From Nitrospirota bacterium (lineage in GTDB: Bacteria > Nitrospirota > Leptospirillia > Leptospirillales > Leptospirillaceae), in NCBI GenBank assembly GCA_023481175.1, contig JAMCWM010000026.1, positions 62,001 through 126,000 on the forward strand: a DNA stretch of 64,000 nucleotides, in the 5' to 3' direction. The translations under genes were made by a program, and so were the position numbers. Each line of letters opens with the position of its first letter. Within the stretch, counting starts at the first letter, position 1. Of this stretch, positions 20,757 to 27,269 are shown piece by piece. Under the pieces are notes generated by a model. That model saw only the letters and a list, made by a program, of their open reading frames with translations. It was not told where the DNA came from and ran no database searches.

Positions 20757-21382
20757 CAGAGGGCTCCAAAGTTTTTAAGAAGGGCCAGACCGGTTCGCTG
20801 GCTTTTTTCCGGATGAAACTGCACGGCCAGGATGCGGGAGCGGCCGACAAAGGAGGGATAGGCCTCCTGGTAGACGGTTTCTCCGAGGACGATCGACCTC
20901 TCGGAGGTCCGCACATGGTAGGAATGGACAAAGTAGAAATCGGGCTCCGGGGGGAGGCCTTCCCAGAGGGGGTGGCGCGCCGTCTTCCGGACCTCGTTCC
21001 ATCCGATCTGGGGGACCTTCCCCCGGCTCGGGTCGAAGGAGACCACCTCTCCGGGGAAGACCGAAAGCCCCCGGTGGGTCCCGAACTCGTGACTCTCTCC
21101 GAAGAGGAGCTGCATGCCCAGGCAGATGCCCAGGAAGGGGCGGTCTCCGGCGATCCACTCACGGAGGGCGGGGATCCATCCGGCCTTCTCGAGGCGGCCT
21201 ATTCCTTCCCCGAAGGCGCCGACGCCCGGAAGGACGAGATGAGTCGGGTCGAAGTTTGGGAAGGCCGCCTCGGGATTTTCGGCGATCCGCACCCGATGGC
21301 CCGCGGCCTCCAGGGCCTTCGAGACGGAATGGATGTTGCCCATCCCGTAGTCGATCACCACAGTTCGGGGAGAGGCTCCCAT
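20756..21382 (-). CDS. hisH: Imidazole glycerol phosphate synthase glutaminase subunit HisH
   Basis: This 208-residue class I glutamine amidotransferase supplies ammonia to HisF. The N-terminus VVIDYGMGNIHSVSKAL, the oxyanion turn LPGVGAFGEG, the nucleophile elbow GICLGMQLLFGES (catalytic Cys) and the final AVQFHPEKSQ (catalytic His/Glu) are all intact. Overlaps hisB and hisA by one base each. Confidence 0.98.
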   Translation of the reverse strand: MGASPRTVVIDYGMGNIHSVSKALEAAGHRVRIAENPEAAFPNFDPTHLVLPGVGAFGEGIGRLEKAGWIPALREWIAGDRPFLGICLGMQLLFGESHEFGTHRGLSVFPGEVVSFDPSRGKVPQIGWNEVRKTARHPLWEGLPPEPDFYFVHSYHVRTSERSIVLGETVYQEAYPSFVGRSRILAVQFHPEKSQRTGLALLKNFGAL

Positions 21383-24422: not shown

Positions 24423-25082
24423 TCACCCCGAGATGACCGGTTTCGGCGGAATATGGGGCCTGAGGCGGTCGAGAAGATCCATGACCGCCCTGTTCTTGAG
24501 GGACCAGGAGGCCCGGTTGACGATGAGACGTGCGGTCGAGGGAAGGATCTCCTCGACGATTTCAAGATCGTTTTCCCGAAGGGTCCGTCCCGTGGCCACC
24601 AGGTCTACGATCTGGTCCGCCAGACCTGTCTGGGGGGCGAGCTCGAGAGAGCCGTAAAGTTTCAGGATCGAGACGGGGATCCCTCGTGCCAGAAAGTGCA
24701 TTTCGGCCAGCCGCGGATATTTGGTGGCAATCCGGAGGGTGCGCCTTCCCGGGTCTTCCCGGGCGGGTCCCCCCGGACGCGCCACCACCAGCCGGCAGAA
24801 TCCGACGTTCAGGTCGAGGGGTTCGATCATCTCCCGGTTCTGCTCCTCGATCTGGTCCCGGCCGACAATTCCCATGTCGGCTCCGCCATATTCGACATAG
24901 GCGATGACATCGCTCGATCGGACGAGGAGGAGACGGAGGGAGCCATCGTCGGAGCGGCAGGAGAGGGCCCGGGGATTTTTCAGATATTCCGAGAATCCCC
25001 ATCCTCCCTTCTCGAAAAGGGTCAAAAGATCATCGAACATCTTGCCTTTGGGAAGGGCGAGAACGAGGGAGGGGGAGTCTAT
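24423..25082 (-). CDS. hisG: ATP phosphoribosyltransferase, short form, with apparent ATA start codon
   Basis: HisG catalyses the first committed step of histidine synthesis. The open frame reads SPSLVLALPKGKMFDDLL at its N-terminus, the conserved HisG beginning (LALPKGR), followed by ADMGIVGRDQIEE and DQIVDLVATGRTLRENDL. Only the part from ATG 25040 has a canonical start, and that form would lose the ALPKGK strand. Upstream in frame there is no ATG, GTG or TTG; instead a perfect AGGAGG (25090-25095) lies 7 nt before ATA 25082-25080, which overlaps the murA stop as ATAG. I therefore annotate an ATA start, giving 219 residues. The short form lacks the C-terminal regulatory domain and normally needs HisZ, which is not in this window. 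Confidence 0.88.
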   Translation of the reverse strand: MDSPSLVLALPKGKMFDDLLTLFEKGGWGFSEYLKNPRALSCRSDDGSLRLLLVRSSDVIAYVEYGGADMGIVGRDQIEEQNREMIEPLDLNVGFCRLVVARPGGPAREDPGRRTLRIATKYPRLAEMHFLARGIPVSILKLYGSLELAPQTGLADQIVDLVATGRTLRENDLEIVEEILPSTARLIVNRASWSLKNRAVMDLLDRLRPHIPPKPVISG

Positions 25083-26368
25083 GGCTGATCCTCCTGTATG
25101 CGCTTGATCCGGGCTCCGAGGGATTCGAGCTTTTTTTCGATCGCCTCGTAACCTCGGTCGATATGATACACCCTCTTTATTTCCGTCTCCCCTTCAGCGA
25201 CCAGTCCTGCCAGGACAAGCCCCGCCGAGGCCCGGAGGTCGGAGGCCATCACCGTGGCGCCCTCCAGCCGGCTTCCTCCCCGGACCAGGGCCTGGGAGCC
25301 ATGGATTTCGATTTCCGCTCCCATCCGGTTCATTTCCATGACATGGGTGAAGCGATTTTCGAAGACCGTTTCGATGACCGAGGAGGGACCGTGGGCGGTC
25401 GCCATCAGCGGGAGGATCTGGGCTTGCATGTCTGTCGGAAATCCGGGGTAGGGAAGGGTTCGGACCGACGTTCCGACAGGTCGTCGTATCGCCCCCAGGG
25501 TGATGGTGTCTCTCTCGATCTGGGGTTCGGCGCCCATGGCCACGAGGACATCGAGGATGGAGGTCAGGGGAGTGGGATCGACGCCCTCGATCCGGACCCG
25601 GTCTCCCAGGAGGGCGGCTCCCACGAGAAAGGTTCCCGCCTCGATCCGGTCGAACATGATCCTGTATCCGGTTCCGGAAAGCTCCCGGACACCCTCGATC
25701 CGGATCAACGAGGTTCCTGCCCCGGAAATCCGAGCCCCCCTGGCTGTCAGGAAGTGCGCCAGGTCCGCAACCTCAGGCTCTTCGGCCGCATTCGAGATCG
25801 TGGTGGTTCCTCTGGCCAGAACTGCCGCCATCAGGATGTTCTCCGTCCCGGTGACCGTCGGGTAGGGTAGGGCGATCTCCGCTCCTTCGAGGCCGTCTGT
25901 CTCGGCGTCGATATATCCGTGGTGGATGGTGATCCGCGCCCCCATTTTTTCGAAGGCCTTGAGATGCATGTCGACGGGCCGGGCTCCGATCAGGCACCCT
26001 CCCGGGAGGGAGACCCGGGCGCGCCGTTTTCTGGCCAGAAGGGGGCCGAGACAGAGGACGGAGGCGCGCATTGTCCGGACGAGATCATAGGGGGCTTCGT
26101 AGTCCGGGGTCTCCTGGTCCGAAAGCAGAAAGGTGCCGTTCCAGTCGGAGGCGGGGCAGGAATGGGAATCGAGGGGGTGGGTGTGGACTCCGAGTTGCCG
26201 GAGGAGGGAGAGGGTCGTCCGGATGTCCCGGAGGCAGGGAACGTTGCCGAGGGTGAACTCTCCTCCGAGAAGGGAGGAGAAGAGAATCGGAAGGGCGGCA
26301 TTCTTGGAACCCGAAATCCTGACCGTTCCCCGGAGGGGATGGCCACCGACTATTCTGAATGCGTCCAA
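25079..26368 (-). CDS. murA: UDP-N-acetylglucosamine 1-carboxyvinyltransferase
   Basis: MurA transfers enolpyruvate to UDP-GlcNAc, the first step of peptidoglycan precursor synthesis. The 429-residue protein has FRIVGGHPLRGTVRISGSKNAALP, the active-site loop SLPGGCLIGARPVDMH with the catalytic (fosfomycin-target) Cys, YPTVTGTENILMAAVLA and YPGFPTDMQAQ. I start at TTG 26368, where GAGG lies 8 nt upstream and the N-terminus matches the family; the TTG at 26422 would lie inside prmC. Located between prmC and hisG. Confidence 0.96.
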   Translation of the reverse strand: MDAFRIVGGHPLRGTVRISGSKNAALPILFSSLLGGEFTLGNVPCLRDIRTTLSLLRQLGVHTHPLDSHSCPASDWNGTFLLSDQETPDYEAPYDLVRTMRASVLCLGPLLARKRRARVSLPGGCLIGARPVDMHLKAFEKMGARITIHHGYIDAETDGLEGAEIALPYPTVTGTENILMAAVLARGTTTISNAAEEPEVADLAHFLTARGARISGAGTSLIRIEGVRELSGTGYRIMFDRIEAGTFLVGAALLGDRVRIEGVDPTPLTSILDVLVAMGAEPQIERDTITLGAIRRPVGTSVRTLPYPGFPTDMQAQILPLMATAHGPSSVIETVFENRFTHVMEMNRMGAEIEIHGSQALVRGGSRLEGATVMASDLRASAGLVLAGLVAEGETEIKRVYHIDRGYEAIEKKLESLGARIKRIQEDQP

Positions 26369-26378
26369 GCAAGTGTCC

Positions 26379-27269
26379 TCATAATTTTTTCCAGATGATG
26401 ACCCGGTCCTGTCCCGACACATCCCTCATGACGGCGGGAGAACCGGTGAGTCCCGTTCCCGATCCGCCCATTGCCCGTCCCCCGTCCCGGAAGGCGTGGG
26501 CCTGGTCGGCCCCTATTTCGAAGGCCAGAAGACCTTCCTCCTTCAGGAGGGCTGGGGCAAAGGACAGGATCTTCCGGTAGCATGCGAGGCCGTCCGGCCC
26601 TCCGTCGAGCGCCGCGGCGGGCTCGTGGTCGCGGACCTCCGGTTCGAGCGTCGGAAGAAGGCCGGTGGGGATGTAGGGAGGGTTGGAGAGGATGAGGTCG
26701 AAGAACGGCCTCTCTCCCAGCATCTCTCCCCAGCTCCCGCGAATCACGGAAAGCCGTTCTTCGAGGCCGAAACGCCTCCTGTTTTCGAGGAGGAACCGGA
26801 GCGCCGCCGGCTCCCGTTCGACGGCCACCCCGAATGCGTCGGAGACCTCGAGCAGGAGGGTCAGGATGATGGCTCCGGATCCGGCCCCCAGATCGAGAAT
26901 CCTGACCGGGGCCTCGCCACGCCGGTCCGTCATGTGGTCGAGAGCGCAAGCGACAAGATGCTCCGTTTCCGGTCGCGGAACCAGGACTCCGGGGCCCACC
27001 CGGAAGGAACGGCCAAAAAAGGGGACCTCCCCCACAATGAAGTGGAAGGGCTCCCGGTGCCTCCTCCGGCCGACCCAGGTCCGGAAGGTCTCTTCCATCT
27101 CCGGGGAGAGGATCTCCGGTCCCCGGGTCCACGGGGCATTGGGCGAGCCGAGAAGGGCTCCCATGAGGGCCCGGGATTCAAGGATCGGGTTGTCGAGTGC
27201 CTCCAGGCGGTCCTGTGCCCAGAGGAGCCATTCGGCGACAGTTTCCGGTCGATCCCGTCGGGAGGACAT
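26379..27269 (-). CDS. prmC: Release-factor glutamine methyltransferase PrmC
   Basis: This 296-residue SAM-dependent enzyme methylates the GGQ glutamine of release factors. Features: PFHFIVGEVPFFGRSFRV, VLVPRPETEHL, the SAM-binding ILDLGAGSGAI and the catalytic NPPYI. It directly follows prfA (TGATG overlap), its substrate, the usual prfA-prmC arrangement. Confidence 0.96.
   Translation of the reverse strand: MSSRRDRPETVAEWLLWAQDRLEALDNPILESRALMGALLGSPNAPWTRGPEILSPEMEETFRTWVGRRRHREPFHFIVGEVPFFGRSFRVGPGVLVPRPETEHLVACALDHMTDRRGEAPVRILDLGAGSGAIILTLLLEVSDAFGVAVEREPAALRFLLENRRRFGLEERLSVIRGSWGEMLGERPFFDLILSNPPYIPTGLLPTLEPEVRDHEPAAALDGGPDGLACYRKILSFAPALLKEEGLLAFEIGADQAHAFRDGGRAMGGSGTGLTGSPAVMRDVSGQDRVIIWKKL

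Follow-up and report, generated by a model that had tools for sequence, protein, structure and literature searches.

In the window, that is, the whole 64,000-nucleotide stretch of DNA that was analysed, translation of hisG almost certainly initiates at an AUA codon, judging from the sequence and its relatives. This codon shares two bases with the stop codon of murA, the upstream gene, and of the 21 genomes compared from the family, whose bacteria are related to Leptospirillum, 18 keep the ATA at the hisG start. Very probably, hisG is expressed from this weak start in a manner coupled to murA translation, and the start has been kept since the family ancestor, probably to restrain HisG. Few bacterial start codons are rarer than AUA, and gene callers normally pass it over; consequently, annotated HisG proteins of this family would lack their first 14 codons.

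The murA-hisG junction, on the minus strand, has the sequence ...CATAC AGGAGG ATCAGCC ATAG ACTCCCCCTCC..., in which the Shine-Dalgarno (SD) sequence is separated from the ATA by the 7-nt spacer atcagcc (25089-25083). The hisG frame, which lies in the -1 frame relative to murA, is open for 37 codons above the ATA. This open stretch contains no ATG, GTG, or TTG, and none is present in frame from the upstream stop to codon 15 of hisG; the next canonical start after the ATA is ATG 25040. A re-reading of the sequence bears out the preliminary description of this region, which had correctly placed the SD, the ATA, the murA stop, and ATG 25040, had noted the lack of canonical starts in the upstream stretch, and had put the AGGAGG (25090-25095) exactly 7 nt before the ATA (25082-25080). 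It had also likened the ATAG overlap with the murA stop to the ATGA junctions of the same operon, and ATGA-type junctions are indeed found there at 21382 and 20756.

Table 1. Features of the murA-hisG junction in the window
Feature	Position	Strand	Basis
hisG (ATP phosphoribosyltransferase, short form, 219 codons with AUA counted as first)	24423..25082	-	TIGR00070, PF01634, and solved HisG matches
ATA, putative hisG start codon	25080..25082	-	sole near-cognate codon common to 18 genomes; 7-nt spacing kept
ATAG stop-start overlap (murA stop TAG 25081-25079 and hisG ATA)	25079..25082	-	ATAA in 15/18, ATAG in 3/18 genomes
Shine-Dalgarno AGGAGG, 7 nt 5' of ATA	25090..25095	-	identical spacing in 18/18 relatives
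hisG codons 2-14, absent if the start is ATG 25040; contain strand LVLAL and PKGK	25041..25079	-	codons 6-14 conserved
murA, gene upstream of hisG; likeliest start TTG 26368	25079..26368	-	TTG/GTG kept among relatives

The comparison set comprises 21 genomes of the family from five genera (g1-g5), of which 14 belong to the window's own genus, g1, and seven to the others. The ATA is present in all 14 congeneric genomes and in four of the seven confamilial ones (two in g2, one in g4, and one in g5), and thus in four of the five genera. In each of these 18 genomes it follows an SD at 7 nt (AGGAGG, but GGAGG in g4); the seven intervening bases differ from genome to genome, and their number is constant. 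The murA stop that overlaps the ATA is TAA in 15 genomes, TAG in three, and TGA in none, so that the 4-nt stop-start overlap of a termination-reinitiation pair, as ATAA or ATAG, is found in 18 of 18. Accordingly, hisG displays the features of a conserved AUN start: no canonical start, a strong and well spaced SD, and conservation across species. The preliminary description had proposed the use of AUA and had suggested aligning hisG from close relatives; in this alignment no ATA-bearing relative has ATG or GTG at the site, and the codon, its spacing, and its overlap recur, which supports the proposal.

The window comes from a metagenome bin of 2.3 Mb, and every ATA-bearing genome for which a public record was identified is a metagenome bin too, so the ATA might be suspected of being a sequencing or assembly error for ATG. 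The chance of this is negligible. The same codon occurs in 18 genomes, several with separate public assemblies, and an ATGG at this position would abolish the murA stop as well; since 18 of 21 species share the arrangement, neither faulty sequencing nor chance explains it. Initiation at some other upstream near-cognate codon (ATC, ATT, or ACG) is highly unlikely. Seven congeners do carry an ATC or ATT 14 codons upstream, but this codon is missing from the remaining genomes and the SD does not stand at the right distance from such codons; among near-cognate codons in the hisG frame, ATA alone is common to all 18.

Read from the ATA, the product (IDSPSLVLALPKGK) aligns with the whole of TIGR00070, the curated model for HisG, whose position 1 falls on residue 6 (5.4e-54, model positions 1-183 of 183 in a profile search), so that the N-terminal strand is included; the match to PF01634 is 8.2e-51. 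Twenty solved HisG sequences match the product, and in one of these, 2vd2, residue 6 is aligned to residue 6 of the ATA reading; thus, the normal start of HisG falls at the ATA. HisG of the short form lacks the C-terminal regulatory domain and depends on HisZ. The protein read here is 219 aa long, without a C-terminal extension, and 20 of the 21 genomes contain at least two PF13393 proteins (of the HisS/HisZ type, the two not being told apart).

The first canonical start in the frame is ATG 25040, which is conserved in 14 of 14 congeners, and HisG could in principle begin there and lack its first strand. Several observations make such a start very improbable. As the preliminary description had pointed out, the usual beginning of HisG requires a start upstream of ATG 25040; the shorter version loses the LVLAL strand and the first ten positions of TIGR00070. 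When the 14 congeners are compared over hisG codons 6-14, all 309 codon differences are synonymous and none alters the amino acid, while codons 2-5 are free to vary; this strict selection at the protein level indicates that the stretch before ATG 25040 is read as part of HisG. The ATG itself appears as the ordinary M of a PKGK-M/L-F motif. In one ATA-bearing genome, G017, CTG is found in its place and only 8 codons are open above the ATA; hence no internal ATG is available there as a start.

The start of murA is most likely the TTG at 26366-26368 (minus strand), as comparison among the relatives suggests. At this position every one of the 14 congeners has TTG, as does a g2 genome, and g5 has GTG. 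The first ATG of the murA open frame, at 26422, lies inside prmC and is not conserved. Moreover, in eight of the genomes compared the frame is closed by a stop within a few codons before the TTG 26368 site, so the murA start must lie there.

Since the hisG frame is -1 relative to that of murA and -1 slippage can be promoted by SD-like sequences, an AGGAGG-assisted frameshift near the end of murA could be imagined to give a MurA-HisG fusion with no separate hisG start. This is extremely improbable: the end of murA contains no slippery heptamer (the sequence there is CAG CCA TAA, GTG ACA TAG, or GCA CAA TAA, depending on the genus), the re-paired codon would mismatch, and the upstream open stretch of G017 is only 8 codons long.

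Beyond the protein, selection is visible on the hisG ATA codon itself. Its first A is the third base of the last murA codon, a four-fold degenerate site, and this codon is CCA in 14 of 14 congeners. CCA accounts for 20 of the 504 remaining proline codons in murA and hisG of these genomes, and among the 238 four-fold columns of the two genes, the first base of the ATA is the only one that is A throughout. The other two bases of the ATA belong to the murA stop, which is necessarily a stop. Consequently, AUA might be used and yet be kept only by lock-in, through its overlap with the stop and the choice of stop codon, with low HisG output serving no purpose. This account is possible but doubtful. 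A single transition, TAA to TGA, would provide a normal murA stop while converting the ATA into ATG (an ATGA junction), yet TGA never ends murA in the 18 genomes even though no other stop is as common nearby (27 of 49 gene-like ORFs in the window, by a crude caller); hisG itself ends in TGA in 10 of the 18. In addition, the murA stop varies between TAA and TAG, the first A, which lies outside the stop, is likewise fixed, and genus g3 demonstrates that escape is possible. The absence of TGA together with the fixed first A indicates that it is the ATA that is conserved, not merely the stop. It is likelier that the ATA was retained because a weak start was favoured than through lock-in.

In g3, the genus without the ATA, murA ends in TGA about 60-70 nt upstream of hisG (L020-L022), hisG has canonical start candidates, of which a TTG looks the likeliest, and the junction is uncoupled. 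A tree of MurA and HisG, built without the HisG N-terminus, places g3 within the family beside g2, g4, and g5 (support 95/92). From this placement, the ATA would most simply go back to the family ancestor, with a loss in g3, a history of two changes. HisG genes from other phyla have a canonical in-frame start in 69 of 69 cases. Two distant relatives, G031 (L023) and G036, each contain one in-frame stop within the frame that matches HisG, possibly because of assembly errors.

The initiator tRNA has the standard CAT stem-loop in 19 of the 21 genomes, and a version of this stem-loop with a TAT anticodon is found in none of the 21; thus, the UAU anticodon that would pair fully with AUA, as expected of a changed initiator tRNA or code, is not seen. 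Two genomes yielded the canonical anti-SD end, and one of them, G017, bears the ATA (GGATCACCTCCTTT); no match came from the other genomes, probably since rRNA is often missing from bins. Throughout the window's own genome, the pattern AGGAGG-N5-8-ATA occurs at 57 sites, versus 84 in a reversed control. Apart from hisG, none of these sites heads a convincing gene, and nine candidate frames that follow such sites match no Pfam family. AUA use therefore looks specific to hisG, in a scan that covered AGGAGG genome-wide and weaker SDs in the compared loci and the window. By comparison, in the 14 congeners and g4 a strong purine-rich SD precedes infC, whose start codon is ATT (L142-L156, L162); this indicates that a start of the IF3-sensitive kind is in use in this lineage. 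The codon that precedes this ATT in the genus is CTG; one congeneric genome, G002, has two infC copies on different contigs (L148, L162), possibly through contamination or duplication. Taken together, the ordinary initiator tRNA, the ATT of infC, and the lack of SD-ATA enrichment point to a gene-specific weak start and not to a new code. No conserved RNA structure was found at the murA-hisG junction (consensus of -15 kcal/mol over 180 nt, with folds that vary among genomes). The SD is partly paired in most single-strand folds, as expected within GC-rich coding sequence.

Initiation at hisG most likely proceeds as follows. A ribosome that finishes murA at UAA or UAG would be retained by the AGGAGG that lies seven bases upstream and would then reinitiate one base back, on the AUA. 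The CAU anticodon of fMet-tRNA would pair with the A and U of this codon and leave a C-A mismatch at the third base. Because of the mismatch, the start should be inefficient, and it is proposed that IF3 rejects many of the attempts. In a reconstituted system, IF3 tolerates Watson-Crick and G/U pairs at the third base and excludes weaker ones (PMC10158994). The outcome would be weak synthesis of HisG coupled to the translation of murA, and selection would have retained this weak start since the family ancestor, probably to restrain the first committed his enzyme. HisG catalyses the committed step of histidine synthesis and consumes ATP and PRPP; thus, a low, fixed ratio of HisG to MurA and to the products of the other his genes is plausible.

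The nearest precedents are other near-cognate starts. In Escherichia coli, infC begins with AUU and is autoregulated through IF3, and pcnB, a chromosomal gene that is kept low by its near-cognate start, also begins with AUU; pcnB thus differs from hisG both in the codon and in the gene. Like hisG, infC combines an AUN start with a strong SD, and its start is conserved because it is weak. However, the hisG start overlaps the stop codon of the upstream gene, and since HisG is not a translation factor, no direct autoregulatory loop is expected, unlike the case of infC. AUA starts are already known in Staphylococcus aureus, where those of infC, ccpN, and citZ have been proven, for ccpN and citZ by profiling and reporters (PMC13009471). 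In poor medium, the ccpN and citZ AUA codons reach about 10% of the AUG level; the AUA/AUU starts of three genes likewise give about 10% in this medium, and ccpN AUA, which is medium-dependent, gives up to 30% of AUG in rich medium (PMC13009471). Like hisG, ccpN and citZ are metabolic or regulatory genes with an AUA behind a strong SD; they are different genes in a different phylum, and their starts are not known to be stop-start overlaps. The 4-nt overlap itself recalls the ATGA termination-reinitiation junctions (PMC6728339), but in hisG the start is AUA and the stop is UAA or UAG, not UGA. A literature search for non-canonical HisG starts, AUA-started hisG included, found no report. The AUA proposed for hisG belongs with the conserved near-cognate starts, here combined with a stop-start overlap.

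For the family, the AUA start probably holds the HisG enzyme at a low, set level. More tentatively, the AUAA/AUAG junction may be a dedicated device, ancestral to the family, in which coupling to murA together with IF3 would tie HisG to the state of the translation machinery or to growth and would take the place of an attenuator or repressor. An AUA on a metabolic gene, kept across genera within a stop-start overlap even though one transition gives ATG, provides a natural test of whether selection favours weak starts as a means of setting enzyme levels.
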